A stretch of 36,424 bases of DNA from Candidatus Sulfopaludibacter sp. SbA3 (lineage in GTDB: Bacteria; Acidobacteriota; Terriglobia; Bryobacterales; Bryobacteraceae). The DNA is taken from contig CAMAVI010000031.1 of assembly GCA_945861625.1 (NCBI GenBank), positions 1 to 36,424 on the forward strand, in the 5' to 3' direction. Every line of letters begins with the position of its first letter. Positions within the stretch are counted from its first letter, which is position 1. Positions 10,417-33,790 of the stretch are shown one piece after another. The translations under genes were made by a program, and so were the position numbers. The notes beneath the pieces are model-generated. The model ran no database searches. It saw only the letters and a list, made by a program, of their open reading frames with translations, and was not told the origin of the DNA.

Positions 10417-10422
10417 TAGAAT
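10417..10422 (+). promoter_or_regulatory. Putative -10 box (TAGAAT) 6 nt before a GTG start
   Basis: TAGAAT ends exactly 6 nt before the GTG at 10429, with no ribosome-binding site between. A sigma-70 start 7 nt downstream of the box would fall on the start codon, giving a leaderless mRNA. Confidence 0.5.
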
Positions 10423-10428
10423 GATTTT

Positions 10429-10629
10429 GTGACGCTGGATGCCGAACAGGTAAAAGCATTTCAGGAACACACGGCCGGCAAGGTTCGCGATCTGCGCTGT
10501 CCGGTTCACGGCCGCGCCCCACGCCTCCGCTTCCAGGGAACGACTCTGCGTGAAGTCGATATCCGGATGAGCGGCTGCTGCGAGCAGTTGATCGGGCTGG
10601 CCAACCAGAAGATCGCGCAGCAATCGTAA
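10429..10629 (+). CDS. Small conserved Cys protein, function unknown
   Basis: The 66-aa cytosolic protein has no signal peptide. It contains C24-P-V-H27 ('RDLRCPVHGRAPRL') and a vicinal pair C50-C51 ('MSGCCEQLIGLA'), which could bind a metal or do redox chemistry. That is inference from residue pattern only. Regular amphipathic content and a well-placed -10 box support it as a real gene. Start is GTG at 10429. It diverges from dnaG. The outer-membrane protein follows 50 nt downstream. Confidence 0.7.
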   Translation: MTLDAEQVKAFQEHTAGKVRDLRCPVHGRAPRLRFQGTTLREVDIRMSGCCEQLIGLANQKIAQQS

Positions 10630-10679
10630 GCCTCTCCATTCCGTTGAAACCGGAACCCATTCCATAGCGTCAGCAGGGA

Positions 10680-11858
10680 ATGGCGCACCGTTGTCTTCGC
10701 GTTATGGCTTTGGCAGCGTTGCTGCCGTGGATGTGTTCTGTCGCGATCGGTCAGGACATCACAATCGGCGCAATTGCCGGTACCAACATTACCGATGACG
10801 TCCGGTCGGGCCACCAGACTTTTTCCAACGGCACGCCATCCCCGGAATCTCCGGCGACAACCTATATTGTCGATCCCGGTGAGCGCAGGCCCATTCTCGG
10901 GTTCAAGATAGAATACCGTCTGCCCGGCAATTTCGCACTGGAGTTCGACGCGCTGCATCGCGAGCTGAAGTACACCACAACCACAATCTACTCGCCTCCC
11001 TTTGAGTGTTGTGATGGTTTTAAGATCTCGAAATTCGGACCTTCTACCAGCACTCTCGCAACGTGGGAATTCCCGCTGCTGGCGAAGTATCGATTGCCGT
11101 TGGGAAGGCTGCATCCGTTTATCGCAGCAGGGCCATCCTTCCGTCCGGGAGGTTCGGGAACCGGACTCTCGCACGCCGGCTTCGCGGCGGGAGGCGGCCT
11201 GGAGTTCTTCACCAGAGGTTTCCGCATCTCGCCGACGTTGCGGTACACATACTGGCCGTCGGCGAATGCGTCTTTCTTTAGCCAGCCGCTTCCGAATCAG
11301 GTCGAGTTCCTGGTCGGCCTGGACCGGCCATCGACGGCGGCAGGATTCGGGGCGTTCGGCCGGCGGCTTTCCGCAGGAGTGATCGCGGGCGTTGGGCTGG
11401 GGCAGGATTTCAGAGCACTGAACTCCGGCCGAGTTCCAGAGTCCAACAGTGGCATCTACGGTGTGATGCTCGAGGCCTCCTTACCGAAGAATTTGGCCGT
11501 CGAAGTCGATGGGCTCTACCGCCCGCTGCACGGCTCCGACAATGAGTTCGGCCAGTCGGTGCGTTTCGCCCACCTGACATGGGAATTTCCCGTGTTGTTG
11601 AAGTACAAGTTTTGGAACGACCGGCGATGGCGGCCCGTGCTGGAAGCTGGACCGTCGTTTCGCGCCGAAGGAAATTTGAATTTGCAGCCCGTTTCGCATT
11701 TTGGCGCCACGGTAGGAGTGGGACTGGAAACGAAATTGTCCAAACTCAAGATCACTCCGATGGTGCGTTACACCCACTGGGGCAGCCAGACGAATTACCT
11801 GTTCCAGCCGCAGACCTGGGCGAATCAGACCCAGTTGCTCGTATCCTTTACGTTTTGA
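10680..11858 (+). CDS. Outer-membrane beta-barrel protein with two duplicated barrels
   Basis: The 392-aa secreted protein has a signal peptide ending near AIGQ (residue 24) and ends in Phe (LLVSFTF), as expected for a BAM-inserted barrel. It is an internal duplication. Residues about 25-212 and 228-392 align through the shared blocks 'TWEFPLLAKY' / 'TWEFPVLLKY', 'AAGPSF' / 'EAGPSF', 'LRYTYW' / 'VRYTHW' and 'NQVEFLVGL' / 'NQTQLLVSF'. Each half would give an eight-stranded OmpA/OmpX-like barrel. Function is unknown. Start is ATG at 10680 with CAGGGA upstream, and a TAGCGT box 9 nt before the start. Confidence 0.88.
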   Translation: MAHRCLRVMALAALLPWMCSVAIGQDITIGAIAGTNITDDVRSGHQTFSNGTPSPESPATTYIVDPGERRPILGFKIEYRLPGNFALEFDALHRELKYTTTTIYSPPFECCDGFKISKFGPSTSTLATWEFPLLAKYRLPLGRLHPFIAAGPSFRPGGSGTGLSHAGFAAGGGLEFFTRGFRISPTLRYTYWPSANASFFSQPLPNQVEFLVGLDRPSTAAGFGAFGRRLSAGVIAGVGLGQDFRALNSGRVPESNSGIYGVMLEASLPKNLAVEVDGLYRPLHGSDNEFGQSVRFAHLTWEFPVLLKYKFWNDRRWRPVLEAGPSFRAEGNLNLQPVSHFGATVGVGLETKLSKLKITPMVRYTHWGSQTNYLFQPQTWANQTQLLVSFTF

Positions 11859-11876
11859 TGACGGCCGCGCTGGCGC

Positions 11877-13565
11877 TTAGGTGCCCGGTGCGTACTCGAT
11901 GACCAGCGCCGTGATATCGTCGCGGATCGCGCCGCCTTCGGTGAACTCATCCACGGCCTTCAGCAACGCGGCATGCAGTTCCGTCGCGCTCAATCCGGCG
12001 TGCGTGCGCAGGCACTGCCGCAGGCGCTCCGTATCGAAAAACGCGCCACTGTAACTTTCCGCATCCGTGAGACCGTCGCTATAGATAACGATCTTATCGC
12101 CCACCGCCAATTTGGTCTGCACCATTTGAAAGGTGGCTTCTTCCAGCATGCCCACGGGCATGGACGTGGTGTGCAAAGTGCGGATGCGTCCATCAAGGCT
12201 CAGCAGCAACGGAGCACAGTGGCCGGCGTTGGAATAACTCAGCAAGCCTGACGATTCCAGAATCCCGTAAAAAACAGTGGCGTACTTTTCACCGCGGGTG
12301 CGCTCCAACAGAAATTCATTGAGGCGGGCCATGCGCGGCTGAATGTGCAGCGGATCGCCGGAGGCCATCAGGAACGTCCCCTGCAACAGACTCGCCAACA
12401 GGGCGGAGCTCACGCCCTTCCCGGAGACGTCGGCCACAACCGCGGTCCACGATTCCGGGGAATTCTGGTGGACATCGAAATAATCACCGCCCACCTGCGC
12501 CGAGGGTGTACTGGAGCCGGCCGCGCGGAACCAGCCATCTTGCGGCATGGAGACGGGCTGCAAGCCCTGCTGGATCTGACGGGCGATGCGAAGCTCGTCT
12601 TCCATGCGCGCCTTGCCGCGTTCCTCTTCGAGGAGCCGCGCGTTTTCCAGAATGGTGGAGGCTTCGATGGCGAGCGTCTGCAGGAGCTCCCGGTTGCCGG
12701 ACGACAGATCGGCGGGGGTGGCCCGCGAGTCCATATAGATCAGCCCCACCGTGTCTTCGATGGCGGAAATGTTGCGCGTCGCATCCGCGGTTCCGGAGCC
12801 ACCGCGCAAGCGGATTAAGGGTAGACATACGGCGCTGCGGAGCTCCAGTTGCGCCACGGTCATCTCCGGCCGCACGCCCTCCCGATCGAAAGGATCGAAC
12901 GACATGGATAGCAGATCACGGCGGGTGGCCAGCGCCTCATGGATAACGTGCGAAGGAACGCGCAGGTCCTCCGGATTCAATTGACGTCCCGATTTGTCGC
13001 GAGCAACGGTAACGTTCAATTCGGCGGAGCGGTCAGCGGTGGGGCGAAGCAGCAGGAATCCGCGTTCGCAGCCGGTGACGGCCAGCGCGGCATCCACGAC
13101 GGCGGCGAGCACTTCATTGGTGGAGAGCGCATTCTGCAGAGCCCGGGCGACTTCCACCAGGGATCGCAACTTGACCAGATCCCGCGCCTTGCCGGCATCT
13201 TCTCCGGACTGCGACGCAGACGGCAGTTGTTCCAGCAGGCGCCGGATCTCCCTGTGCTCCAGCGAGAAAGTGATCTGGTAGGAATCGCGAACACCGAATT
13301 CGATGCGATCGGAATTACGCAGCACATGCCGCGCGATCCGTGCGCCGTTCACCCAGGTGCCATGCCGGCTGTTTAAGTCCTCGATGACGTAAGAATCATT
13401 CTCGAAAGCGATCCGGCAATGGGTGCGGGAAGCGCGGTTATCGCGCAAGACCAGACTGTTGCCCGCCTGGCGGCCGATCGAAAATGGCAATGCGTTCAGT
13501 TCGAGGCGTTGGCGTTCGCCGGAAAGGTCGACGACCTGCAAAACGGCAGAAGGACGGTCCGCCAT
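11877..13565 (-). CDS. FHA-GAF-SpoIIE (PP2C-type) phosphatase, RsbU-like
   Basis: This is a multidomain signalling phosphatase. An N-terminal FHA domain (about 28-96: SIGRQAGNSLVL, SRTHCRI, NSRHGTWVNG) reads phosphothreonine. A GAF domain (about 145-305) and a coiled linker (305-335, RIARQIQQGLQP) follow. The PP2C-SpoIIE catalytic domain (about 350-560) carries the metal-binding acids in GGDYFD (D361), DVSGKG (D379), YSDGLTDAE and DDITALVIEY. Such proteins usually dephosphorylate anti-anti-sigma factors. None is encoded here. The FHA domain suggests input from a Ser/Thr kinase, perhaps the one at 5004. I chose ATG at 13565, which overlaps the fur stop as TGATG, so translation is coupled. Confidence 0.92.
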   Translation of the reverse strand: MADRPSAVLQVVDLSGERQRLELNALPFSIGRQAGNSLVLRDNRASRTHCRIAFENDSYVIEDLNSRHGTWVNGARIARHVLRNSDRIEFGVRDSYQITFSLEHREIRRLLEQLPSASQSGEDAGKARDLVKLRSLVEVARALQNALSTNEVLAAVVDAALAVTGCERGFLLLRPTADRSAELNVTVARDKSGRQLNPEDLRVPSHVIHEALATRRDLLSMSFDPFDREGVRPEMTVAQLELRSAVCLPLIRLRGGSGTADATRNISAIEDTVGLIYMDSRATPADLSSGNRELLQTLAIEASTILENARLLEEERGKARMEDELRIARQIQQGLQPVSMPQDGWFRAAGSSTPSAQVGGDYFDVHQNSPESWTAVVADVSGKGVSSALLASLLQGTFLMASGDPLHIQPRMARLNEFLLERTRGEKYATVFYGILESSGLLSYSNAGHCAPLLLSLDGRIRTLHTTSMPVGMLEEATFQMVQTKLAVGDKIVIYSDGLTDAESYSGAFFDTERLRQCLRTHAGLSATELHAALLKAVDEFTEGGAIRDDITALVIEYAPGT

Positions 13566-14038
13566 CAGCTTGGCTGTTGCTGGGTTTTCTCGGCGGCCTC
13601 CCGCGCGATCTGAGGCTGGCAATCCGGGCAGTAGCCGCCCAGTTCGGTGCGGGCGACAATAATCTTGAAGCCGAAGCTGCTCTCCACCTGTTTGCGCATC
13701 GACTGCAGAGGCTCGCCGAAGAACTCTTCGATTTTGCCGCAGCGCAGACAGATCAGGTGGGCGTGCTCCTGTTTCAGGCGGCTTTCGTAATAGTGCTGAT
13801 CGCCTTCAAAGTGCAGGAGATCGAGTTCATCCACCAGCCCGCCTTTCTTGAGCAACTTCAGCGTGCGATAGACGGTGACGCGATTCAGCTTGGGGTCTTC
13901 CTTGATGGCCATCTGGTAGAGCGCCTCGGCGTTCAGGTGACGGCCGGAGCGATCCAGGAGGTCCAGCAGGATGCGGCGCTGACGGGTAAGCCGTACCCCG
14001 CGCTCCTTGAGCGAATTCTGCATTCCCGCAGTTGGCAT
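13565..14038 (-). CDS. fur: Fur-family metal-responsive repressor
   Basis: This winged-helix regulator binds DNA when loaded with metal or when its metal site is unoxidised. From ATG at 14038 it is 157 aa, normal for the family. It has the DNA-binding domain (about 10-80, 'RLTRQRRILLDLL', 'NRVTVYRTLKLL'), the metal region 'EHAHLICLRCGKIEEF' (H92, H94, C97, C100, E104) and a second Cys pair C137-P-D-C140 that completes a structural Zn site. Whether it is Fur, PerR or Zur cannot be decided. The open frame extends 41 codons upstream without family similarity. It is translationally coupled to the SpoIIE phosphatase. Confidence 0.9.
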   Translation of the reverse strand: MPTAGMQNSLKERGVRLTRQRRILLDLLDRSGRHLNAEALYQMAIKEDPKLNRVTVYRTLKLLKKGGLVDELDLLHFEGDQHYYESRLKQEHAHLICLRCGKIEEFFGEPLQSMRKQVESSFGFKIIVARTELGGYCPDCQPQIAREAAEKTQQQPS

Positions 14039-14177
14039 GGATATCTTGAGGGTAGCAAATCGTGAGTCACGGCAGACTTGAAACTTTAAGTTCCACGGAT
14101 ACCGGAGGTTAGCGCCGCGCGCCCGCGGCCGGCGGCCGCTTCGCATATAAGATTGACGCAAGAAAAGGGTGCCGCTG
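14039..14177. promoter_or_regulatory. Divergent region fur / unknown gene
   Basis: The 139-bp spacer carries TATAAGAT (14146-14153) on the plus strand, a fair -10, followed by AAAAGGG 8 nt before ATG 14178. On the minus strand TACCCT ends 10 nt before the fur ATG. A very GC-rich run (14113-14140) lies in the middle. No clear Fur-box palindrome was seen. Confidence 0.4.
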
Positions 14178-15077
14178 ATGACAACGCATGTGCATTTGTA
14201 CTGGCTGAGAGAGTCCGGTTGCGATATGGGGACGCCGCTGCGGATTGCGGATCTCGATCCGGCGATTCAGCAGAAGGTCGCCGCTTTGGCCCACGGGGAT
14301 GCCGGTCCGTTGACGCTGCAGCTTCCCTTCTTCAATCGCCGCGAATCGCGACGCCGCGCCGAGGTGTTGCGGGGATTGCAGCTGGTCCGGGAGGGCGATG
14401 TCATCCGCAGCATTCCCGCCACGGCGGCGGCGGCCTTGCGGGATTACACGGCCTTGCTGCTGGCGTCAGAGCCGGGCTGGATGAATGCTCCCAATGAAAC
14501 GAACCCTGGATACTTTGCCGCGTGGCAGAAAGTTTCGCTCGCGCTGCAAAGGGCCCTCCGGCAATGGATTCCCGAGATTTACTTCCGCGACGCCGCGAGC
14601 TATGAGGATCGCCCGGCAGCCTATCCACTGCTGGTGTATGAAGCGAGCAAGATGTGCTTCGGCCGGCCGCGCACGGAGTTCACTTATGACCTGGCCGATC
14701 CGGACACGCTGCCGCGCGCGATGTACATGATTGGACAATCGCTACAGCGGGTGCTGGCGGGGGTGGAACGCAGACTGTTCGACGAAGGGCGTCCCGAACT
14801 GGCCCGCCGCTACGCACCCATCTGGTACGAAGATATTTTGCGGGCGGTCCGCGCCAAGCCCCGGCCCCTGATCACACTGGTGGGCGACGAAGCCCTATTC
14901 ATCAATGCGGTAATCGACCTGGGAAGCGCGCGAAAGTTGGAAGCCGTAAAGCCGTTCGCGCGAACGGCGAATCTGGCGCTGCGGACAATTTATGCCATGG
15001 ATCTGCGAACGCTGGCTCCGGCGCTGCTCGCCGAAGCCACCAAGGCTTTGCAAAACGCGAAAGGGGCGAACGGATAG
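14178..15077 (+). CDS. Protein of unknown function, helical, cytosolic
   Basis: The 299-aa product is not recognised. It has no signal peptide or membrane helix and is predicted from composition to be mostly alpha-helical. Features that might be conserved are 'LPFFNRRESRRRAE' (about 50-63), 'NETNPGYFAAWQKVS' and 'YPLLVYEASKMCFGRPRTEFTYDL'. I chose ATG at 14178 with AAAAGGG 8 nt before it. A GTG three codons earlier and an ATG 16 codons later (before GTPLRIADLD) are alternatives. It diverges from fur and converges with the copper-monooxygenase gene, so its context gives no functional clue. Confidence 0.75.
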   Translation: MTTHVHLYWLRESGCDMGTPLRIADLDPAIQQKVAALAHGDAGPLTLQLPFFNRRESRRRAEVLRGLQLVREGDVIRSIPATAAAALRDYTALLLASEPGWMNAPNETNPGYFAAWQKVSLALQRALRQWIPEIYFRDAASYEDRPAAYPLLVYEASKMCFGRPRTEFTYDLADPDTLPRAMYMIGQSLQRVLAGVERRLFDEGRPELARRYAPIWYEDILRAVRAKPRPLITLVGDEALFINAVIDLGSARKLEAVKPFARTANLALRTIYAMDLRTLAPALLAEATKALQNAKGANG

Positions 15078-15110
15078 CTCCGCCCGCCCCCATTTGCGAC
15101 TTACAGGTTT

Positions 15111-16457
15111 CTATTTCGTGTTCATTGCCCCGAGCGTGCTCAACGCCGGCCCAGCGCCCTGAGGACGCGGCAGGAGACTTGGGCCGGTCGATCGCAAAAC
15201 CTCCCCGATATCCGTGTTTACGGGGACCAGGAAGCCTAGGAAGCTGGACTGCATCTCGTCCCAATTCTGCAGGCCCCAATACACTTCCTGTTTGGGGTCG
15301 GGATTGAACTTGTTGTTGGGCGAGTTGTCGAAGTGCACGATGGTGACGATGCGGGTGCCTTTGGGCAGCAGGATCGGCTCTTGCAAGCTATAGCCGAGCT
15401 GCCATTCGAAATCGAACTTTCCTTTGAAGACCGTCTGGGTTTCGCCGGTCGGATAAATCAGCCGAAGCTCATAGTCCTTGCCGCGCAGGTGCATGTGCGG
15501 CTGGATGTAAGTGAGCTTGGTTTCCACACCCACGGTGCTTTCGGCAACCACCTCGGCGTTGCTATCGCCAGCCGGAATCACAAGGTTCAGGGCCGCCGGA
15601 GTACCGGGCGAAAGGAAGTAACGCACATTGGGCTTGGATTTGGCCAGCACCACTCCGACCTTGGAACGGTCCGTGGTGATCTTGCCCGCGGCTGTGTAGT
15701 GCAGCTCAAAAACAAAATCCGATCCCTTGGGGATCAACTTCGCCGAGCCGTCGATATCGAACGATTGCGCGCCCAGGCCCGGATTGAATTTGCCGAGAAT
15801 GTCGTTGCCATCGCTCAAGCTGACTCTGCCGGCTTCGCGGCCCTCGTAGGGCTTGCCGGGTTCGGCGTCGGCCATCCATTTCGAGCCGGGAGGCAGGACC
15901 CACACTTTGCCGTGATGCAGAACCTTCGGATTGCTGGGGCGCATCTCGGCGGCTTCCACCCACAGATCTTCTTTAATATTGCCGGGGACGCGGATGTACT
16001 TATAGTTGATGGTGCCGGCCGCGGGGAGCACGAAATCTTCGGGCATCTCAATGACCAAGTCCGGTTTGATCTTCCAACCGGAAGTGAACTGCACCGGCGC
16101 GGGCTTGTCCTTGGCGTCGCCTTCCGGGGCGCCGCTATCGGCCCACGCGGAAAGAATATTGATCTCTTCCTGGCTCAGCCGGCGGTCATTCGCGAAGTGG
16201 CCGTAGCTGGGATCGGCAAACCAGGGCGGCATCTTCTTGCTGAGCACGGCGGCCTTCATGGCCTTGGCCCAGGGACGCGCCTCCGCATACGTCAGCAGCG
16301 ACATGGGGGCGACCTCGCCGGTGCGATGGCATTCCTGGCAGTTCTTCTGCAACACAGGAAGGACTTCCTTATTAAAGGTGACGTTGGACGCGGCCATGGC
16401 GGCAACGCCGGCCAAACAACCTAGTCCCACAAATCGAACCAGCGGCGGAATCCTCAT
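15111..16457 (-). CDS. Cytochrome c fused to PHM-like copper monooxygenase
   Basis: This is a periplasmic redox enzyme candidate of 448 aa. After an N-terminal signal (1-22) comes a c-type cytochrome domain (about 25-110) with C40-QE-C43-H44 and a likely axial Met in 'KKMPPW' (M76). The remainder resembles the two-domain fold of peptidylglycine alpha-hydroxylating and dopamine beta-monooxygenases. All six copper ligands have counterparts: H181-H182 ('KVLHHGKVW'), H253 ('FELHYT'), H321/H323 ('QPHMHLRG') and M402 ('WDEMQSSF'). The substrate is unknown. Heme could donate electrons in place of ascorbate, which is inference. It is the last gene of a three-gene operon. Start ATG 16457 has TAGGAGG upstream. 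Confidence 0.85.
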   Translation of the reverse strand: MRIPPLVRFVGLGCLAGVAAMAASNVTFNKEVLPVLQKNCQECHRTGEVAPMSLLTYAEARPWAKAMKAAVLSKKMPPWFADPSYGHFANDRRLSQEEINILSAWADSGAPEGDAKDKPAPVQFTSGWKIKPDLVIEMPEDFVLPAAGTINYKYIRVPGNIKEDLWVEAAEMRPSNPKVLHHGKVWVLPPGSKWMADAEPGKPYEGREAGRVSLSDGNDILGKFNPGLGAQSFDIDGSAKLIPKGSDFVFELHYTAAGKITTDRSKVGVVLAKSKPNVRYFLSPGTPAALNLVIPAGDSNAEVVAESTVGVETKLTYIQPHMHLRGKDYELRLIYPTGETQTVFKGKFDFEWQLGYSLQEPILLPKGTRIVTIVHFDNSPNNKFNPDPKQEVYWGLQNWDEMQSSFLGFLVPVNTDIGEVLRSTGPSLLPRPQGAGPALSTLGAMNTK

Positions 16458-16485
16458 CAGACTAGCCTCCTATCGGCATCCAGAA

Positions 16486-17001
16486 TTATTTCACAATTTC
16501 GACCTGGAGGGAAACGTCCAGAGTCTTGGGAGGCAAGCACATACTGTCATTACAGGCCTGATAGCGGAGCTTGCCGGTCAGAGTCGCGGGCCCTGGCGCG
16601 GCGCTCGCGGGCGCCTTGAAGCGAGTAACGATCTGAAAGTCGCCCGTGAAAACGGACAGCGGCTTCTCCGAGAACTTGTACTTTTCCATGTGCGGTTTGG
16701 GGAACGTAAAGCCGGTGGCCTCCAGCGGCCCGGTGTCCCAGGTGAGACGCAAGGGAATGAGATAGTCGTCGGAAGGAGTGTTGCTGTTGACGTGGTAGCC
16801 GGGCCGCAACTCCACCGGCAAGACTGAATCAATCGTGGCGCCGGGTTTCGCAACGGCCTTTTTCGGCGGCACGAAGTTCAAAACGCCGGGCTGGGCGAAC
16901 CCCTTACCGATGAGCTGGGCGAAGCAAGCCGGCGAGCAGGCCAGGACCAGCGTCATGTAAAGCAGCGCTCTTGGGATCTTCAAGCAGTTTAAGAATCTCA
17001 T
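16486..17001 (-). CDS. Stand-alone DsbD N-terminal-domain-like periplasmic protein
   Basis: This resembles the alpha (periplasmic) domain of the thiol reductant transporter DsbD, which relays electrons to periplasmic partners, but it lacks the membrane and thioredoxin parts. From ATG at 17001 it is 171 aa. A signal peptide (MRFLNCLKI...SPACFAQ) leads to an immunoglobulin-like domain with 'RPGYHVNSNTPSDDYLIP' and the redox motif 'RYQACNDSMCLPPKT' (Cys-x4-Cys). The start lies inside the 3' end of the TlpA gene (98 bp shared). It precedes the cytochrome c/copper enzyme by 28 nt, so it may supply electrons for, or help assemble, that protein. This is inference. Confidence 0.8.
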   Translation of the reverse strand: MRFLNCLKIPRALLYMTLVLACSPACFAQLIGKGFAQPGVLNFVPPKKAVAKPGATIDSVLPVELRPGYHVNSNTPSDDYLIPLRLTWDTGPLEATGFTFPKPHMEKYKFSEKPLSVFTGDFQIVTRFKAPASAAPGPATLTGKLRYQACNDSMCLPPKTLDVSLQVEIVK

Positions 17002-17494
17002 TCTGGTAATCACTCTTGTCCACGAGACCTACGTGGTGGGCGGCAACCCGGCCCTGGCGGTCGAGAATAAAAGAGGTCGGCAGCGCGTCAATTTCGCCGT
17101 ACTTCTGGGCCACCGTATCGTTGCCGATGACGATGCGGTACGTCATCTTGTGCGCAGCCATGTAGGGACGCACGGATTTCCAGCCGTCATCGTCCATGGA
17201 AATTCCCAGCACAGCGAAATCGCGGCTCTTATACTTCTGCTCAAACTCGATAAACCAGGGGATTTCGGCCTCGCAAGGCCCGCACCACGTGGCCCAAAAA
17301 TTGATCAGGACCACTTTACCTTTATAGTCGGCCAGGCTGACCGTGTCGCCGTTGGCGTCTTTGAGCGAAATCTCGGGGGCCTTCTGGCGCTTGGATTCAG
17401 CCGGCATACGGGCTTCAATCTCCTGCTTTGACTTAGAACAAGAGGCCAGACCCAGCATAAGGACCAAAGCGGCGGCGCGATAATAGCGGCTCAT
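16904..17494 (-). CDS. TlpA/ResA-like thioredoxin-fold lipoprotein
   Basis: This is a membrane-anchored periplasmic thiol-disulfide oxidoreductase of the TlpA/ResA kind, often used in cytochrome c maturation or copper-site assembly. The 196 aa begin with a lipoprotein signal (lipobox LASC, C19). The thioredoxin domain (about 38-175) has the active site W70-C-G-P-C74 and the cis-Pro loop 'IDALPTSFILD'. The C-terminal tail after 'LKLLED' looks non-conserved and is the part overlapping the next gene. Start is ATG at 17494 with TTAGGGA upstream. It is first in the operon with the DsbD-alpha-like and cytochrome c/copper proteins. Confidence 0.9.
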   Translation of the reverse strand: MSRYYRAAALVLMLGLASCSKSKQEIEARMPAESKRQKAPEISLKDANGDTVSLADYKGKVVLINFWATWCGPCEAEIPWFIEFEQKYKSRDFAVLGISMDDDGWKSVRPYMAAHKMTYRIVIGNDTVAQKYGEIDALPTSFILDRQGRVAAHHVGLVDKSDYQNEILKLLEDPKSAALHDAGPGLLAGLLRPAHR

Positions 17495-17525
17495 TACATC
17501 CCTAACGTATCACGCCAGAAACTCC

Positions 17526-17564
17526 GGTGTGACAGGCGGGGTGTGACAGGCGGGGTGCGACGGC
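17526..17564. repeat. Short 14-bp tandem repeat, about 2.7 copies
   Basis: GGTGTGACAGGCGG is repeated exactly (17526-17539, 17540-17553) and then partly (GGTGCGACGGC). It lies in the divergent region (17495-17619) between the TlpA-like gene and the secreted protein. Tandem GTGTGACAGG units could be operator repeats or simple slippage. Confidence 0.6.
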
Positions 17565-17619
17565 CCCCAAGGCCCACGCAACAACTGTGTCATGATGAAG
17601 GGCGCCGGGAGGCGGAGAA

Positions 17620-18795: not shown

Positions 18796-18799
18796 CCGC

Positions 18800-19279: not shown

Positions 19280-19282
19280 GGA

Positions 19283-20269: not shown

Positions 20270-20318
20270 AGCGCTCCTTCAAATTTAGCATCCATCGGTT
20301 CGCTATAGTAGCTGGGAA

Positions 20319-21281: not shown

Positions 21282-21293
21282 GATGAAATCATC

Positions 21294-23878: not shown

Positions 23879-23954
23879 GAACCCTCCCCAGACTTAGACC
23901 CGGCGCCAAAAAACCGTGTGAATCCTCATTGTACCGTGCTAACCTTTTTTATAA

Positions 23955-26641: not shown

Positions 26642-26657
26642 GCAAACTAGAGTTTAC

Positions 26658-27566
26658 TTAGGGGGCTAGGATTCTCACGAGATTTTCGCCAAAAATCGCG
26701 CGCGCCCCGGCTAGATCCAAACCCAGTTCGTAGAGCGCCGTGGACTGCTCGTCGAAAATCTGAAAATGCCAGCCGCGCGGGAAGAACGACGAATCGCTGC
26801 CGAACAGCAGGCGTTTGGGTCCAACGACTTCCAGGGCCTGGCGAAAGACGGCGCGCAGATCCAGGTGTGGCGCGTGATAGCGCGTCCAACGATTGGAACT
26901 GGAGGTGTCCAAGTAAACATTCGGACACAGATCCGCCAGCATCAGCGCCTCGCGAAAATAGCCGGCCCCAAAATGCGGAATGATGAACGGCACTTTGGGA
27001 TGCCGCGCGGCGACCATGTGGAGGTCCACGGGATTCGACAGCCGTAGATCAAACGCCGAGGGCAACCCGAGTTTCTGGCGGACGCCAACGCTCAAAGCCC
27101 CGCAGTGCACGAACACGGCCCGGCGGCCCTGCGCTGCCCAGGTGAGGACGGGCTCCACGATTTCATCCTGAATGGAGTAGCCGTGCATCGCGGGAAACAG
27201 ACACACCACCCGAACATCGGAAAATGCTTCCGCCTTCCAATTTTTCGGGTTCACCATGGCGAAGGCGAAAAAGCGGTCCGGGTGCGCGCGCGCAGCCGCG
27301 GTAACCGACTCATGGTCGCCCGGAATGCTGGCAATGAGCGCGGACTGGTCCACACCGTGCCGGTCCAGCTCGCGGGCCCAGGTCTCGGCCAGCGCCTCAG
27401 CGGAGGCGGGCGGAAACTGCCAGTCCAGTTGGCTCTGGATGCCTTCGACGGTGAGTCCAGGCTTCTGTGTCGCGAGAATCTCGAAGAAATGCCGCGAGAA
27501 GAAATGCACGTGCGCATCGGCCACGATCAGCGGGCCCCACGGGGATTGGCGGGCAATGCGCTCCAC
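26658..27566 (-). CDS. Amidohydrolase (Amidohydro_2 family)
   Basis: This is a TIM-barrel metal-dependent hydrolase or decarboxylase, 302 aa. The metal-binding motif D18-A-H-V-H22 is near the N-terminus, later His in 'IPHFGAGYFRE' supports the barrel, and the terminal Asp lies in 'LFGSDSSFFPRGW'. The family includes ACMSD-type decarboxylases, and the substrate is not predictable. Start is GTG at 27566, 3 nt after the response-regulator stop, with GGGAGC upstream. It belongs to one operon with the two-component pair. Confidence 0.88.
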   Translation of the reverse strand: MERIARQSPWGPLIVADAHVHFFSRHFFEILATQKPGLTVEGIQSQLDWQFPPASAEALAETWARELDRHGVDQSALIASIPGDHESVTAAARAHPDRFFAFAMVNPKNWKAEAFSDVRVVCLFPAMHGYSIQDEIVEPVLTWAAQGRRAVFVHCGALSVGVRQKLGLPSAFDLRLSNPVDLHMVAARHPKVPFIIPHFGAGYFREALMLADLCPNVYLDTSSSNRWTRYHAPHLDLRAVFRQALEVVGPKRLLFGSDSSFFPRGWHFQIFDEQSTALYELGLDLAGARAIFGENLVRILAP

Positions 27567-27569
27567 GAT

Positions 27570-28229
27570 TTATTCGGCTCCCAATTGGGTCAGCCCGGTG
27601 GATAACGCGAGCTGGGTCAGTCCCGCGACGTTGTTGACACCAAGTTTCTTCATCATGGTCTTGCGATACGTGCGCACGGTCTGCTCGCTCAAGTCCAGAA
27701 GCGTGGCGATTTCCTTGCTGGTCTTGCCGTCAGCCACCAAACGCAGCACCTGTACTTCGCGCGGCGACAGCACACTCAGCGCCGATTCCGGCTTGGACGC
27801 AAGGTCGCCTTTCTGGATGCGCGTCAAAAGGCGGTCGGATACTTGCGGACTCAGATACGCCCCGCCATTGGCAACGACGCGCAGGGCTTCCAGCAGGTCG
27901 CTGTCGGAGACTTTCTTCAAGACGAATCCGCGCGCGCCGGAGCGCACGGCGCCCACCACGGAGTTCTCGTCGTCATACATCGACAGGATGACAACTTTGC
28001 ACTCGGGGTGATGGCGCAAGATCTCGGCGGTTGTATCCACGCCCTTTAACCCCGGCAGGCCGATATCCATCAGCACCATGGCCGGCTTCTGCTGTTTGAC
28101 GAATTGGAGGGCTTCCGCGCCGTTCGCCGCCTCGCCCACGACGGTGAAATTGCCGTCGCGGCTCAGGATGGCTTTAATGCCATCGCGCATGATCTTGTGG
28201 TCATCCACGAGAAGAACGTCGAATGGCAT
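27570..28229 (-). CDS. NarL/FixJ-family response regulator
   Basis: This is a cytosolic transcription regulator of 219 aa. The receiver domain (about 3-120) has D9-D10, phospho-acceptor D55 ('MVLMDIGLPG') and Lys in 'FVLKKVSD'. The LuxR-type HTH (about 150-215) has 'LSPREVQVLRLVADGKTSKEIA' style sequence, split as LSPREVQVLRL and GKTSKEIATLL. All key residues are intact. I chose ATG at 28229. The TTG upstream (28244) is less likely. It overlaps the histidine kinase gene by 29 nt. Confidence 0.93.
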   Translation of the reverse strand: MPFDVLLVDDHKIMRDGIKAILSRDGNFTVVGEAANGAEALQFVKQQKPAMVLMDIGLPGLKGVDTTAEILRHHPECKVVILSMYDDENSVVGAVRSGARGFVLKKVSDSDLLEALRVVANGGAYLSPQVSDRLLTRIQKGDLASKPESALSVLSPREVQVLRLVADGKTSKEIATLLDLSEQTVRTYRKTMMKKLGVNNVAGLTQLALSTGLTQLGAE

Positions 28230-28806
28230 AGGTAATGGAAACAATTGTACCTTTTTCTGTTATGACGCCGAAGTCGAGACCGGAATGCAGGGCCCGCAGC
28301 GAGGCGGCGGCCAGATCTTTCTTCGCAACCTTTCCCGAATGAGATACTCGCGCGGTGACCGCATGCGCGCCGGAAACGGAAATCGCTATGTCTTTGGTTC
28401 CATCCGCATTCGCCACGGCGCTGGCGATTGCATGATACATGGCGTCGGCGATGTCCAAGGGCAAGATTGCGGTGGCAGTGTAACGCAACCGCACACGTGC
28501 GGCGCCGCCGGAGCCGCCCGCCAGATCCAGCAACGCGTTTTTCAGGCCGGTGCGGCGGACAGGCGAAGGCTCCAATGCGCGGCTGAGAGCGCGCAAGTGT
28601 TCCATCACGCCTTCGAGCGCCTCGCTGACTTCGGCGGCCCGCTCGGAGGCCGCGGGAAAGTCCATGCGCAAAAGCTGCAAACGGAGGCCCGCGACGGCCA
28701 AGAGGGAACCCACGTCGTCATGAAGAACTTGTGCCGCGCGGCGAAGTTCCTGGCGGCTCCGGACACACTCTTTCGCGAGTTCGTCCGCGTGCGAATCGCG
28801 TGGCAT
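28201..28806 (-). CDS. Sensorless histidine kinase of the NarX/DesK type, degenerate ATPase
   Basis: The 201-aa cytosolic protein has a HisKA_3 dimerisation helix with phospho-acceptor H29 in 'QVLHDDVGSLLAV', the correct HD(D/E)xG context. The HATPase part (about 105-195) is eroded. The N-box is 'AIASAVANAD' with the usual Glu and first Asn missing. No DxGxG box is seen (in its place 'SHSGKVAKKD'), while 'GVITEKGTIVSITY' resembles the G2 end. There is no sensor or transmembrane domain. It may be a phosphatase or pseudokinase partner for the downstream regulator. Start ATG 28806 has TACACT 6 nt before it. Confidence 0.8.
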   Translation of the reverse strand: MPRDSHADELAKECVRSRQELRRAAQVLHDDVGSLLAVAGLRLQLLRMDFPAASERAAEVSEALEGVMEHLRALSRALEPSPVRRTGLKNALLDLAGGSGGAARVRLRYTATAILPLDIADAMYHAIASAVANADGTKDIAISVSGAHAVTARVSHSGKVAKKDLAAASLRALHSGLDFGVITEKGTIVSITYAIRRSSRG

Positions 28807-28812
28807 GGATCA

Positions 28813-28818
28813 AGTGTA
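28813..28818 (-). promoter_or_regulatory. Putative -10 box (TACACT) 6 nt before the histidine kinase ATG
   Basis: On the minus strand TACACT (28818-28813) is followed by TGATCC and then ATG at 28806. There is no room for a Shine-Dalgarno leader, so a leaderless transcript is implied. No strong -35 is visible. Confidence 0.5.
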
Positions 28819-28870
28819 ACGCGCGAAGATAACGCACCAAAATCGCAAAACAAAGCCGCGCGGAGAAGGT

Positions 28871-28876
28871 TACACT
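28871..28876 (+). promoter_or_regulatory. Putative -10 box (TACACT) 6 nt before ATG 28883
   Basis: TACACT is followed by AATCCA and the ATG. It is the same hexamer and spacing as the divergent box at 28818-28813. The two boxes face away from each other across 52 bp. Confidence 0.5.
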
Positions 28877-28882
28877 AATCCA

Positions 28883-30166
28883 ATGTCCGTATTGGCCGCG
28901 CTCGCCAAGCTTAAAGGGAAATTCGGCGTTGCCGCGGCGCGCCAGGCGGCGGCTCTTCTGGAGCGCGCGCAGCGGATGCGTTTTCGCGATCCCGAAGAAC
29001 TGATCGAATTCCACGAGACTGTGCTGTTTCTGCGCGCCTATCCCCAGAGCGCCCGCGTGCTCAAATTGGCTGACCAAATCCTGTTTCCCTTTGCGGAACG
29101 AGTGCGCGGGTTGGAGCGCGAACCCCTTGAATATTCCGACGTATCGGGCATCGCGGGCACCGGCCTGACCACCAACTTCAGCTATCCCTTCGCCCGCAGC
29201 CTGGCCGAACGCCACGACGGTAATGTCCATATCGATTGGATGCAGTACGGACACGCGGACCGCTTGGGCCCCATCCTGGGGCGGTTAATTCGAGAAGCAT
29301 TCGAGGACTGGGCCGTAGCGCCGCACGCCGATTGGCGGCGCTGGTACGAGAAGGCGGGCGGAAGCTTGCGCTGGCTGATCTCTCAAGTCAGACCCGAGGT
29401 CTACGATCTATTGGAACTGCCGCTGCGTTGGGAACTCGGCGACAGCCCGGCCTCGCGCTCGCGGGCGCGCACTCCGCGCAAGAAGATGTTCTATCATAAC
29501 GGGCCATTCCTGGCGCGCAAAGATGTGTCCTTCGCAGCCGAGTTTGCCGCGCCGAGGATTCCGGCGGAACGCTTGCCGCGCGAGCAGGCCCGGAAGCTTG
29601 TGGACATCATCATCGACGCGTCAGCAGTCCGGTATAGAGAACTGTACGGATTCCTGTATCCCGATCTCGGGGGAGTGTTTCATGCGGACTTGGGGCGCGG
29701 GATCGATTTCTATTTCTGCGGTCTCCCTCGCCAGTGGCGTCTGCCGAGGCGCGATTACTACGCCGGAATGTATTTCAAGAATGGCGTGCCCATCGGTTAT
29801 GTGGAAGTGATCTCGTCGCGTGACAAGACCGGCGTGCGCATGGAGGTCGGCTTCAATCTGTATTACACGTTCCGCCAGGGCGAGACCGCGTGGCTGTATG
29901 GGCGCCTGCTGAAGCTCTTCCGCGAGCGCTACAAGGTGACGGCCTTCGTCATCGATCCCTACCAGATCGGACACCAAAACGACGAAGCAATTGAGTCGGG
30001 CGCGTTCTGGTTCTACTACAAGTTGGGTTTCCGGCCCGAATCGCCGGAGATCGCCGCGCTCGCCGAGCGGGAAGAGAAAAAGGTCGCGGCGCGCCCCGGC
30101 TACCGCACTTCCCGAGCTACGTTGCGGAAATTGGCGGCGGGAACGATGGCCTATCGTTGTGAGTGA
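28883..30166 (+). CDS. Protein of unknown function with GNAT-like C-terminal part
   Basis: The 427-aa cytosolic product is unrecognised overall. The N-terminal half is helical with 'FHETVLFLRAYPQS' and 'DWMQYGHADRLGPIL'. From about residue 250 the pattern becomes alpha/beta. 'GIPIGYVEVISSRDKTG'-type strands (actual text NGVPIGYVEVISS) and the end 'ESGAFWFYYKLGFRPESP' resemble the last helix-strand of GNAT acetyltransferases. A true acetyl-CoA loop was not located. Start ATG 28883. Its last 16 nt overlap the 3' end of the convergent phosphatase gene. Confidence 0.78.
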   Translation: MSVLAALAKLKGKFGVAAARQAAALLERAQRMRFRDPEELIEFHETVLFLRAYPQSARVLKLADQILFPFAERVRGLEREPLEYSDVSGIAGTGLTTNFSYPFARSLAERHDGNVHIDWMQYGHADRLGPILGRLIREAFEDWAVAPHADWRRWYEKAGGSLRWLISQVRPEVYDLLELPLRWELGDSPASRSRARTPRKKMFYHNGPFLARKDVSFAAEFAAPRIPAERLPREQARKLVDIIIDASAVRYRELYGFLYPDLGGVFHADLGRGIDFYFCGLPRQWRLPRRDYYAGMYFKNGVPIGYVEVISSRDKTGVRMEVGFNLYYTFRQGETAWLYGRLLKLFRERYKVTAFVIDPYQIGHQNDEAIESGAFWFYYKLGFRPESPEIAALAEREEKKVAARPGYRTSRATLRKLAAGTMAYRCE

Positions 30167-31128
30167 TGTGAAGACTTGGCGCGCCAGCGTCTGCCCAGCG
30201 CGGGGATGATCGCGCCGCCTAGATTCGCCAAGTTCAGGTCCGGGAACGGGGGTCGTTCCGCCCGCGGATTAAGCGCGCGAAGGAACGCTCCAGCGAACCG
30301 GCCCAGGGCCCCCAACTTTTCCCCCACTGTATATTGCAATTTGCGGCCGTTGGAGCGTAGCACCAGCACTGTGACATCGTCGTCAGTAAGATTTTGTGGA
30401 TAACGCTCCGCTATTTCCGTCAGTAACTTCTTGATCACGTCTTCGGGATCCAATTCGCCCAGCAGGCGCAGAATCCGCAGGACACCATCTTCACCCAGCA
30501 TTTCACCGCTGGGGTCGTTCGACTCCATTAGCGCGTCGGTATAGGTGAGGACGCAATCGCCGGGCTCCAGCTCAATATCGAAGTGATCGTATTCGGAAAG
30601 CTTCAGCAGCCCGAGCGGAAGATTCGTGGGTCCGCTGCGTATTCTGGCGTTTGCGTGTTTCGTATCCGGGTGCCCGAGGAAATCCCAACTCTGGCTCGCG
30701 GCCCGATACAGGATCGGCCGGGGATGACCGGCATTGCACACTGTCATCCGCCGGCTCGGTTCAAAAAATGTAACGACCACTGCCGTGGCGAACGCCCCGT
30801 CCTTGGAAAGTTCCGTGAACTGTTGATTGAGAAACCGCACGAACTCAGACTGATCCAGGCGGTTGACGAAGCGCCGCATCAGCGTTCTCAGGTCGGCCGC
30901 TGTCGAAGCGACAGAGGACCCATGGCCCGCGACATCGGCCAGCAATAGACGGGCGATCCGGCCCGTAGCGCAGCTCGACGCGTAATAAACGTCGCCGCCA
31001 TGCTGGGCATCATCGTAGGGCTTGCTGTAGACCCACACATCCAATCCACCGAAAGCTACGCCGCGCGCAGTGAGTTGGCTGCCTCCCCAGACTTCCATGC
31101 ACTGCATTTGCTGCTGGTTTTCACTCAC
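30151..31128 (-). CDS. SpoIIE/PP2C-type phosphatase
   Basis: This is a single-domain RsbU-like Ser/Thr phosphatase, 325 aa from GTG at 31128. The catalytic acids lie in 'HGGDVYYAS' (D46), 'LLADVAGHGSSVAS' (D65), 'YTDALMES' and 'NLTDDDVTVLVLR'. No sensor domain is present. A basic C-terminal extension of about 65 residues follows ('FPDLNLANLGGAIIPALGRR'). Its target is probably an anti-sigma-factor antagonist encoded elsewhere. TTG at 31131 and ATG at 31107 are alternative starts. A consensus TATAAT lies 6 nt before the GTG. Confidence 0.9.
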   Translation of the reverse strand: MSENQQQMQCMEVWGGSQLTARGVAFGGLDVWVYSKPYDDAQHGGDVYYASSCATGRIARLLLADVAGHGSSVASTAADLRTLMRRFVNRLDQSEFVRFLNQQFTELSKDGAFATAVVVTFFEPSRRMTVCNAGHPRPILYRAASQSWDFLGHPDTKHANARIRSGPTNLPLGLLKLSEYDHFDIELEPGDCVLTYTDALMESNDPSGEMLGEDGVLRILRLLGELDPEDVIKKLLTEIAERYPQNLTDDDVTVLVLRSNGRKLQYTVGEKLGALGRFAGAFLRALNPRAERPPFPDLNLANLGGAIIPALGRRWRAKSSHHSQR

Positions 31129-31134
31129 CAACGA

Positions 31135-31140
31135 ATTATA
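31135..31140 (-). promoter_or_regulatory. Consensus -10 box (TATAAT) 6 nt before a GTG start
   Basis: TATAAT (31140-31135, minus strand) is followed by TCGTTG and GTG at 31128. CTGACG (31165-31160) could serve as a -35 with a long 19-nt spacer. No ribosome-binding site can fit in the predicted transcript. Confidence 0.6.
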
Positions 31141-31212
31141 TCTGGCTATGGCTGGGAAACGTCAGCAGGCCGCGTCCATCATGCGCATCCCCAAATTACA
31201 GGTTCCGACCGG

Positions 31213-32568
31213 TCATAGAGAAGGCGTGCGTTCCGTCATCCCCAACATGTCTTCCGCCGCGGCCGCGACGTGCAATAGCAGGTCCTCCTGTTCGGCGGCC
31301 GCGATGATCTGGAGACCGATGGGCAGGCCGGCACGGGTCAATCCGCAGGGAATCGATATCGCGGGCAGCCCCAGCGCGTTGAAGCCCCGCGTAAACCGCG
31401 TCGCGGCGGCGCGGACATCCTCCTTGGCACCGCCCACTTCCACCGTAATGTCACCAATTTTCGGTGCTGTTATAGGCGTGGTGGGAGTGAAGATGCAATC
31501 CACGTGATCGAACAGTTTGGCGAACTGGCGGCCAATGCGGCGGCGCGTGCGCTGGGCCGCGATGTAGTCCATGCCCGAGATCCCTTTGCCCTGATCGAGC
31601 AGAGCCAGCACATCAGCGCCAAAGTCCGCGCGGCGGTCGAAGTAGGGGCGCATCTCGGTGGCGGCTTCCACCAACAGGCATGTCGCGGCGGCGGCACGCA
31701 ACGCTTCCATATCCGGCACGGTGATCTCGATAATCTGGGCTTTTCGTCCAGCCATGGTCAGAATCGCCGTCTGCACTGCCGCCTCCACCTCGGGTTCCAC
31801 ACGGTCGCGGAAGAAATTGGCCGGATAGCCGATGCGCAGGCCGGCCGGGTCCGGCGCGTCGCCAGGAATGTAACCACTGGGTTCGTCGACCATCGCCTGC
31901 AAGGCCAAAGCCGCGTCACGCACGGTGCGAGTCATGGGCCCGACGTGATCCTGCGAAAAACCAAGCGGTAGTACGCCCTTCACGCTCACAAGTCCATACG
32001 TCGGCTTCAGGCCGACGACGCCGCAAAACGACGCCGGGATACGGATGGAGCCGCCCGTATCCGTACCAATGGCCAGCGGCACGATTCCTGCCGCCACAGC
32101 CACCGCCGAGCCGCCGCTGGAACCACCGGAGATGCGCTGCAGATCCCAGGGGTTGTGGATGGGGCCGTAATGCGGATTGTTCGATGTAATCCCGTAGGCC
32201 AGCTCGTGCAAGCCCGTCTTACCCATCGAAACCGCGCCGGCTTCGCTTAGCTCGGTAACGATTTCGGCGTCGCGCGTGGGCACGTAGTGCGCAAAGATCT
32301 TGGACCCCGCCGTCGTGTGCACACCTTTGGTCCGAATGAGATCTTTGTAGGCGACAGGAATGCCATGGAGTATGCCGCGGTCGAAGCCGCGAGCCAGTTC
32401 TTCATCACGCGCGACTGAAGACTCCAGAGCCGCATCGCCGGTCACGGTGATGAACGAATTGAGCTTGCGATCCCACCGTTTGATCTTGAGCAGCGCTTCT
32501 TCCACCAGTTCGCGCGAGGAGACATCCCCGTTGCGCAGAGCCTGGGCGAGGATCGGCAGTGTGGCCAT
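31213..32568 (-). CDS. Amidase (amidase signature family)
   Basis: This is a Ser-cisSer-Lys hydrolase of 451 aa. The triad is K75 ('VAYKDLIRTKG'), cis-S150 ('SGGSSGGSAVAV') and nucleophile S174 ('GTDTGGSIRIPA'). 'FCGVVGLKPTYGLVS' completes the signature. It resembles GatA, but no gatB or gatC is adjacent, so a stand-alone amidase or a distant GatA paralogue is possible. I chose ATG at 32568 (MATLPILAQAL). The frame runs 93 codons further, but that part overlaps the divergent acyl-CoA dehydrogenase gene. Confidence 0.92.
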   Translation of the reverse strand: MATLPILAQALRNGDVSSRELVEEALLKIKRWDRKLNSFITVTGDAALESSVARDEELARGFDRGILHGIPVAYKDLIRTKGVHTTAGSKIFAHYVPTRDAEIVTELSEAGAVSMGKTGLHELAYGITSNNPHYGPIHNPWDLQRISGGSSGGSAVAVAAGIVPLAIGTDTGGSIRIPASFCGVVGLKPTYGLVSVKGVLPLGFSQDHVGPMTRTVRDAALALQAMVDEPSGYIPGDAPDPAGLRIGYPANFFRDRVEPEVEAAVQTAILTMAGRKAQIIEITVPDMEALRAAAATCLLVEAATEMRPYFDRRADFGADVLALLDQGKGISGMDYIAAQRTRRRIGRQFAKLFDHVDCIFTPTTPITAPKIGDITVEVGGAKEDVRAAATRFTRGFNALGLPAISIPCGLTRAGLPIGLQIIAAAEQEDLLLHVAAAAEDMLGMTERTPSL

Positions 32569-32575
32569 AAGCTCC

Positions 32576-32585
32576 AGTCTACAAT
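32576..32585. promoter_or_regulatory. Overlapping back-to-back -10 boxes in a 23-bp divergent spacer
   Basis: The spacer between the amidase ATG (32568) and the acyl-CoA dehydrogenase ATG (32592) is only 23 bp. It holds TACAAT on the plus strand (32580-32585, 6 nt before ATG) and TAGACT on the minus strand (32581-32576, 7 nt before ATG), sharing two base pairs. Any -35 elements must lie inside the opposing coding regions. Confidence 0.5.
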
Positions 32586-32591
32586 TGGGGA

Positions 32592-33737
32592 ATGCGCCCG
32601 CTGACGCATCTGAGTGACGAAGAGGAGTTGTTCCGTTCCACCGTCGCGCAATTTGCGAAGGAACGCCTGGCTCCGCACGTGCGCCAAATGGACGAAGCCG
32701 GCGTCTTCCGTAAAGATCTGCTCGGCGAGTTTTTCGAACTCGGCCTGATGGCCGTGGATGTTCCCGAAGAGTTCGGTGGCCAGGGCGGTAGCTTCTTTCA
32801 ATCCGTGCTCGCCATCGAAGAGCTAGCCAAGGTGGACCCCTCGGCATCGGTCATTATCGACGTGCAGAACACTTTGTGTACCTCGGCTATTCAGCGCTGG
32901 GGGACTTCCGATCAGAAGCGCCGCTTTCTGCCGCGCCTGGCCAAAGACACGGTGGCGTCGTATGCGCTGTCGGAAGCCGGTTCCGGCTCGGACGCTTTCG
33001 CGCTGGCGACGCGCGCGGTGCCGGATGGTGCGGACTTTCGGCTCACCGGCCGCAAGTTGTGGATCACCAACGCCGCTGAAGCCGGACTGTTCCTGGTGTT
33101 CGCCACCGTCGATCCCGCGGCCGGATACCGCGGCATCACGGCATTCGTGATCGAACACGGCACGCCGGGACTTTCCATCGGCAAGAAGGAAGACAAACTC
33201 GGCATCCGGGCCTCGTCAACGTGTGAAGTGATTTTCGATGACTGCCCCGTGCCTGCCGAAAACATCCTGGGTGAAGTTGGTAAGGGTTACAAGGTCGCGA
33301 TCGAGACGCTCAACGAAGGGCGCATCGGGATCGGCGCGCAGATGACCGGGCTGGCGCAAGGCGCTCTCGACCACGCGCTGGCCTACGCCAAGCAGCGCAA
33401 ACAGTTCGGCAAAGCGATCGCGGAGTTCCAAGGCGTGCAGTTCGAACTGGCTGAGATGGCCGTGGACGTCGAAGCAGCCCGGCTCATGACCTACAACGCG
33501 GCACGTTTGAAAGACGCGGGCCTCCCCTTCGTGAAGGAAGCCGCCATGGCCAAGTTCTTCGCGGCGCAGATTGCCGAGCGCTGCGCCTCGCGCGCGATAG
33601 AAGTTTTGGGCGGAGTCGGCTTCACCAAGGAGTACGGAGTGGAAAAGCTTTACCGCGATGCCAAGATAGGCCGGATCTACGAAGGCACGGCCAACATGCA
33701 GCGGTTGACGATCGCGAAACACCTGCTGGGGAAGTAA
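32592..33737 (+). CDS. Acyl-CoA dehydrogenase
   Basis: This FAD enzyme oxidises acyl-CoA to enoyl-CoA in fatty-acid or amino-acid breakdown. The 381 aa are typical for the family. The N-terminal helical domain runs to about 120. The FAD/substrate strands include 'YALSEAGSGSDA' and 'GRKLWITNA', and the C-terminal helical domain has the catalytic-base Glu E364 ('GRIYEGTANMQ') in the position used by short- and medium-chain enzymes. 'KQFGKAIAEFQ' is also canonical. Chain-length preference cannot be told. Start ATG 32592. It diverges from the amidase gene. Confidence 0.95.
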   Translation: MRPLTHLSDEEELFRSTVAQFAKERLAPHVRQMDEAGVFRKDLLGEFFELGLMAVDVPEEFGGQGGSFFQSVLAIEELAKVDPSASVIIDVQNTLCTSAIQRWGTSDQKRRFLPRLAKDTVASYALSEAGSGSDAFALATRAVPDGADFRLTGRKLWITNAAEAGLFLVFATVDPAAGYRGITAFVIEHGTPGLSIGKKEDKLGIRASSTCEVIFDDCPVPAENILGEVGKGYKVAIETLNEGRIGIGAQMTGLAQGALDHALAYAKQRKQFGKAIAEFQGVQFELAEMAVDVEAARLMTYNAARLKDAGLPFVKEAAMAKFFAAQIAERCASRAIEVLGGVGFTKEYGVEKLYRDAKIGRIYEGTANMQRLTIAKHLLGK

Positions 33738-33790
33738 GCCGCGCGCAACCTTCTGCGCCCCGGCTTCGTCAGGATTATAGTGGAGGTAGT

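Follow-up and report, generated by a model that had tools for sequence, protein, structure and literature searches.

Do the TANNNT hexamers that recur a few nucleotides before start codons in an acidobacterial contig mark genes whose messenger RNA begins at the start codon itself? The stretch in question, called the window below, comprises the 36,424 nucleotides of contig CAMAVI010000031.1 of Candidatus Sulfopaludibacter sp. SbA3. A preliminary description listed fourteen such boxes in it, and all fourteen are present at the offsets given there: five at N6, one at N7, six at N9 and two at N10, where N6 denotes a gap of six nucleotides between hexamer and start codon; the box before 14038 lies on the minus strand. 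All were read together as evidence that this lineage uses leaderless initiation heavily. We conclude that the N6 and N7 boxes very probably are a leaderless signature. This rests on a sharp peak at gap 6 over 1.63 Mb of the genome, on the contrast between Thermus and Escherichia coli under the same analysis, on the dependence of box frequency on the distance between divergent genes, and on the conservation of the box before an acyl-CoA dehydrogenase (ACAD) gene. The N9 and N10 boxes form a weaker group that is not to be counted with them.

The window, contig G000:C31, belongs to a genome of 3.82 Mb that is assembled in 174 contigs. Its ispG is nearest to that of Acidobacteriota metagenome-assembled genomes labelled Terriglobia and Bryobacterales, the top matches having 84–86% identity. 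Genome-wide counts cover a sample of 1.63 Mb, window included, in which starts were called by a coding-potential model that takes no account of the sequence upstream and is in that sense motif-blind. Of 1398 genes called 1351 were used, those with no neighbour in their stretch, or lying 80 bases or less from its end, being dropped. The background for each offset is the mean TANNNT count over offsets 25–59. The operon-leading set contains 857 genes, made up of 414 with divergent starts, 231 on the same strand as a neighbour 30–100 nt away, and 212 on the same strand but more than 100 nt from it.

The boxes exceed chance in the sampled part of the genome, as had been claimed from the window, and the excess peaks at exactly gap 6, chiefly at leading genes. 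TANNNT occupies this position in 68 of the 857 leading genes against a background of 10.83 (binomial P about 3e-32), and in 65 of 831 (background 10.46, P about 1e-30) when the window contig is omitted. The peak persists with longest-ORF (open reading frame) starts (76/857, background 9.7), with ATG starts alone (52/596, background 7.5), and in each half of the contigs taken separately (48/468 and 20/389, backgrounds 6.1 and 4.7). It is carried by divergent starts (44/414, background 5.86, sd 1.76) and by same-strand starts 30–100 nt from their neighbour (20/231, background 2.60), and is much weaker at operon-internal starts (5/480, background 2.11). No gap-6 peak is found at internal in-frame start codons (74/30282, background 103) or at out-of-frame start codons (32/12629, background 44). 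Since a −10 hexamer at −12 to −7 corresponds to gap 6, this position would place the first transcribed base on the start codon. The excess over background amounts to 6.7% of leading genes at gap 6 and to 13.8% over gaps 6–10 (8.7% of all usable genes), figures that do not sustain the word ‘heavily’ in the original claim; for the N6 and N7 genes the leaderless interpretation itself is upheld by position, recurrence and conservation.

If transcription starts on the start codon, closely spaced divergent starts are expected to carry the box most often, because they leave little room for a leader. This is the trend observed. A box at gap 6–8 is found at 21 of 44 starts where the divergent gap is 15–44 bp, at 18 of 68 where it is 45–79 bp, and at 19 of 98 where it is 80–149 bp; it falls to 4/102 at 150–299 bp and 9/96 at 300 bp or more, or 13 of 198 starts when all gaps of at least 150 bp are pooled. 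At two sets of control offsets the frequency remains 1.0–7.4% throughout these bins.

A different explanation of the boxes is that they reflect a preference related to translation, for A/T-rich and weakly structured starts, on messenger RNAs with ordinary leaders. Start regions are often A/T-rich, and operon-internal starts, which speak against our interpretation at this point, do carry an excess of their own at gap 7 (12/480, Poisson P about 2e-6) and 8/480 at gap 8, against a background of 2.1. Upstream stop codons may be a source of TA for these gap-7 boxes, the excess being otherwise unexplained. Operon-internal genes also need to be translated, yet they show no peak at gap 6 comparable with that of leading genes, and the box is most frequent at just those divergent gaps of 15–44 bp where room for a leader is small. 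The peak is also specific to TANNNT at one offset: among nine other A/T motifs at gap 6 only TNNANT, which overlaps TANNNT, stands out (40 against 12.6), with AANNNA (20 against 13.1) and TNANNT (15 against 9.9) slightly raised. We therefore consider the translational explanation very improbable.

The sequence of the boxes is consistent with a −10 element. The 68 N6 boxes resemble TA-N-A-[A/C]-T, with A at −9 (0.47), A or C at −8 (0.49 and 0.37) and a weak G at −14, and the most frequent hexamers are TACAAT, TACACT and TATAAT. A general −35 consensus did not emerge: TTGACA is matched at four or more letters in 20 of 100 N6/N7 promoters and in 47 of the 273 boxes used as controls (P 0.54). At least five matches occur in 11/100 and 11/273 respectively (P 0.02), and a minority of the N6/N7 promoters may have a −35 element. 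A Shine-Dalgarno (SD) core is present in only 3 of the 68 N6 genes, compared with 178 of 656 box-less genes. This scarcity is at least partly mechanical, because the box occupies the position of the SD site. The parallel use of SD-led genes, also proposed from the window, is borne out by ispG (GGAGGG) and dinB (GGAGGAA) and by a 16S tail, GGATCACCTCCTTTCT, in which the anti-SD sequence is intact.

The peak has counterparts in some other genomes and not in others. In 200 kb of Thermus thermophilus pTT27, put through the same pipeline, 10 of 83 leading genes have the box at gap 6 against a background of 0.49, whereas in 200 kb of E. coli K-12 none of 125 leading genes has it, against a background of 3.09. 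Three other Acidobacteriota, sampled at 200 kb each, give 7/107, 6/106 and 4/98 (backgrounds 1.54, 0.94 and 0.69). Pooled named ispG loci give 8/102 for Acidobacteriota, 3/81 for Proteobacteria and 1/33 for Gemmatimonadota (backgrounds 1.09, 1.09 and 0.06).

Conservation was assessed gene by gene in relatives, with counts that accept any in-frame candidate start and in which chance matches are accordingly somewhat raised. The strongest case is the ACAD gene, whose TACAAT at 32580–32585 (plus strand) stands at N6 before ATG 32592. Of the loci from 29 relatives, 18 have this gene next to an amidase gene, and in 16 of these 18 it has a box at gap 5–9 (14 of them at gap 5–7), compared with 2/18 at control offsets 20–24. 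The distance between the ACAD and amidase genes varies in relatives from 22 to about 710 bp, yet the ACAD box is kept. The gene starting with ATG 28883 on the plus strand has TACACT at N6 (28871–28876), and its orthologues have a box at gap 5–8 in 10 of the 15 relatives scored, at gap 9 in one and not at all in four, two partial loci (G016) being left out of the count. A third example is the SpoIIE-type phosphatase gene on the minus strand, with TATAAT (31135–31140) at N6 before GTG 31128. Six close relatives were scored, all more distant matches being set aside, and TATAAT stands at N6 in four of them and is absent from two. The start of this gene shifts relative to the protein alignment among relatives, and the box moves along with it; the start at 31128 is supported by the relatives and not by the motif-blind caller. 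Thus for three N6 genes of the window, the ACAD, 28883 and SpoIIE-type genes, the box is conserved together with the start codon.

The N9 boxes behave differently. For the BadF-type ATPase gene that begins with GTG 20319, only five of 24 relatives have a counterpart of TATAGT at 20304–20309 (plus strand), placed at gap 6, 8 or 9. For the gene that begins with ATG 33791, nine of 24 relatives have a match to TATAGT at 33776–33781 (plus strand), the gaps being scattered between 5 and 11. In both counts matches for which no locus was available were left out, and in neither of these two N9 genes, the two compared in relatives, is the box conserved with the start codon. The 33791 box lies beside a GGAGG Shine-Dalgarno site; of the 15 box-less relatives, nine have AGGAG ahead of the start. 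We judge this box to be a chance occurrence or one not connected with leaderless initiation.

These results bear on the suggestion that the N9 and N10 boxes constitute a second class of promoter, producing leaders of 2–4 nt and as widely used as N6. The 857 leading genes have 32, 23, 27 and 22 boxes at gaps 7, 8, 9 and 10 against a background of 10.8, so that gaps 8–10 do show a modest excess, and two ACAD orthologues (L130 and L132) have TACAAT at N9. Set against this are the loss of the box from most relatives of the two N9 genes just described, the SD site of 33791, which many relatives share, and the position of the N9 gene on the minus strand that begins with GTG 26641 (TAAACT, 26651–26656). 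The latter follows a same-strand gene (26658–27566) at a distance of 16 nt and is operon-internal, not operon-leading. A second class of this extent is a possibility that we regard as doubtful. The treatment of N6 to N10 as a single class was rejected, given the failure of 20319 and 33791 in relatives, and the leaderless interpretation of the preliminary description does not extend to N9 and N10.

For the N6 and N7 boxes, motif, position, genomic context and conservation together point to the following mechanism. The boxes would be −10 elements, probably of primary-sigma promoters, that abut the start codon, so placed that the first transcribed base would be that of the start codon at N6 or the base before it at N7. 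The resulting messenger RNAs, predicted to lack both a leader and a Shine-Dalgarno site, would be translated as such beside those of ordinary SD-led genes. A few divergent pairs have their start codons 22–23 bp apart and their two −10 boxes joined at a common, self-complementary TA, in the pattern A-NNN-TA-NNN-T; here one symmetric core would fire both ways to give two leaderless messenger RNAs. We hold with considerable confidence that N6/N7 boxes are −10 elements set against the start codons of leaderless messenger RNAs, accounting for about 7–14% of leading genes, and that in a few pairs a two-way core is shared.

Several observations weigh against this interpretation, in addition to the operon-internal excess at gap 7. 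Among the 212 same-strand leading genes with a neighbour over 100 nt away, only 4 have the box at gap 6, against a background of 2.37. In Thermus the internal genes also peak at gap 6 (10/101, background 0.17), from which it follows that absence of the box from internal genes is no rule of such systems. A genome of the same family as that of the window (G030, 200 kb) has no clear gap-6 peak (2/106, background 1.00). The gene starts on which the counts depend come from a home-made coding model. The depletion of SD sites at N6 was dropped as independent evidence, because SD is likewise lacking with several control motifs in that position. A surplus of ultra-short divergent gaps in this genome was also dropped as evidence: gaps of 0–44 bp make up 25 of 214 here, a share not clearly above the 7/86 of the four other Acidobacteriota (P 0.42), the 1/29 of E. 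coli (P 0.33) and the 2/20 of Thermus.

The pair of the window in which a core appears to be shared is that of the amidase and ACAD genes, whose divergent start codons are separated by 23 bp (32569–32591). On the minus strand TAGACT (32576–32581) stands at N7 before ATG 32568 of the amidase gene, and its TA is common to the plus-strand ACAD box, so that the two hexamers overlap to form the symmetric core AGTCTACAAT at 32576–32585, which we propose as a bidirectional leaderless promoter. A second pair (C17:5852/5875; L098:5853–5874) encodes, according to Pfam, a DUF3108 protein and an ABC-2 type transporter protein. Its start codons are 22 bp apart, with N6 on both sides of the core AGTTTACACT, and overlapping −10 hexamers on opposite strands are thus seen in both pairs. 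The geometry of each implies 23 bp between the predicted transcription starts. Among the 14 relatives that have both genes of the C17 pair, eight keep the core with boxes 6–9 nt from both starts; all eight belong to the same genus, and their cores are AGTTTACACT, AGTCTACACT, AGTGTACACT and AATGTACACT. The remaining six have a longer or altered region between the genes, and each of 11 among their 12 starts is preceded by its own box, at gaps 5–10.

Such cores are more frequent in short divergent regions than expected. The 10 divergent pairs with gaps of 15–30 bp include four with a core at any position, where shuffling predicts 1.11 and only 8 shuffles out of 300 give as many as four, and three in which the core is flanked by 5–10 nt on both sides, where 0.19 are expected. 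Divergent regions of 80–149 bp also contain an excess of symmetric A-NNN-TA-NNN-T cores (45 against 15.3 expected), on which we do not rely because the control core T-NNN-AT-NNN-A is raised as well (37 against 19.1), an effect that is unexplained.

What counts against a shared core in the window pair is that it is kept only in the two closest relatives, L123 (AGTCTACAAT) and L124 (AGTTTAAACT), in which the amidase-side box stands at N7 and N8 respectively. The amidase gene has a box at gap 5–9 in 6 of the 29 relatives and none there in 23, and the activity of both halves of a core is beyond proof from sequence. Pairs 22–23 bp apart could on these grounds be ordinary, with one gene leaderless and the other transcribed from a promoter inside the coding region of its neighbour. 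The C17 pair argues the other way, both in the eight relatives that keep its symmetric core and in the six where nearly every start has its own box, and we consider ordinary pairs unlikely. As to the shared core, we lean slightly towards the view that the 22-bp element, with 6 nt on either side, is a complete two-way promoter that also sets both translation starts and is under selection across a genus. The two genes of such an element would be in mutual competition, because RNA polymerase sits in one direction at a time.

Other close divergent pairs differ in arrangement. The window decamer AGTCTACAAT recurs in a pair with a 30 bp gap (G000:C35:17239–17269), with N7 to one start and 13 nt to the other. 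Where the divergent gap is 35–39 bp, four of eight pairs have a box on both sides, the boxes standing back to back, 11–14 bp apart.

The leaderless habit has been reported for the phylum before. The passages available from Zheng et al. (2011; PMC3160421) report TANNNT-led leaderless genes in three of three Acidobacteria genomes, at a mean of 13.3% and a range of 9.7–19.4%; our estimate of about 7–14% of leading genes is of the same order. The list of lineages given with the original claim, Deinococcus-Thermus and Actinobacteria, was correspondingly incomplete. In that report, as here, the TANNNT core lies about 12 bp upstream of the start, which corresponds to gap 6, and the middle of the box is degenerate in high-GC genomes. 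As far as those passages go it is a genome-level survey, whereas the present analysis proceeds gene by gene and includes conservation and divergent spacing. In Deinococcus-Thermus TANNNT is found directly upstream of ORFs, in Deinococcus radiodurans before about a third of the genes, and has been shown by experiment to act as a −10 element (from the accessible part of PMC12340547). Our case concerns another phylum and a smaller share of genes, with a box whose role is predicted from sequence.

What seems to be new is the back-to-back pairs predicted to share one promoter of 22–23 bp. According to the sections available of the papers concerned, bidirectional promoters with a symmetric −10 element have divergent starts 7–25 bp apart, most often 18 bp (PMC10268837), and five E. 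coli messenger RNA pairs have divergent starts 10–23 bp apart (PMC12825309). The pairs described here resemble these in the closeness of their opposite −10 elements. They differ from the promoters described in those sections in that the boxes share a TA and both predicted starts fall on the start codon (1 nt before it for the amidase gene). The predicted spacing of 23 bp misses the commonest value of 18 bp, which is not obligatory, and falls within the published 7–25 bp (PMC10268837, same sections). No paper joining leaderless genes with the bidirectional promoters of divergently transcribed genes was found in a search outside which most subscription papers lie. One of the three Acidobacteria of Zheng and colleagues is reportedly Solibacter usitatus; a search with the same restriction found no paper that treats this species together with leaderless genes.

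These results support leaderless initiation, gene by gene, as a regular route in a large and little-studied phylum of soil bacteria, and they affect both the annotation of start sites and the prediction of promoters in Acidobacteria. The spacing between box and start offers a possible means of correcting start codons. The pairs 22–23 bp apart would offer a natural minimal system for the choice of direction by the polymerase when both transcripts need no leader.

The remaining boxes of the window vary in the certainty of the genes they precede. With motif-blind calls an N6 box is found at 3 of the 26 leading genes of the window, those at 28806 (minus strand), 28883 and 32592; the same caller places the starts of 10680, 33791, 31128 and 14038 elsewhere. 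TAGAAT at 10417–10422 (plus strand) stands at N6 before GTG 10429, the start of a conserved small protein of 66 residues. Nine of 22 relatives conserve this ORF, with alignments that start at residue 5–8; it is present in one gene-calling run and absent from the genome-wide motif-blind run. TACACT at 28813–28818 (minus strand) stands at N6 before ATG 28806 of a HisKA_3 protein gene, and the one relative compared (L193) has TAAACT at N6. The gene at 28883–30166, which encodes a protein of 427 residues with no Pfam match, is present in 17 of the 61 genomes searched, its own genome counted.

Three further boxes stand at N9: TAGCGT at 10665–10670 (plus strand) before ATG 10680 of a beta-barrel protein gene, whose start is uncertain, the motif-blind call being 10731; TACGTT at 17504–17509 (minus strand) before ATG 17494 of an AhpC/TSA-type gene; and TAACCT at 23940–23945 (plus strand) before ATG 23955, a weak case with no Pfam match, in which the coding model calls no gene. 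The two N10 boxes are TAAAAT at 4988–4993 (plus strand), before GTG 5004 of a protein kinase gene, which is a possible short-leader promoter, and TACCCT at 14049–14054 (minus strand), before ATG 14038 of a Fur family gene, where the start is uncertain and the coding model prefers 14023. Elsewhere in the window, positions 6750–10339 contain a gene for a sigma-70 factor, with regions 1.1 to 4, adjoining a DNA primase gene.

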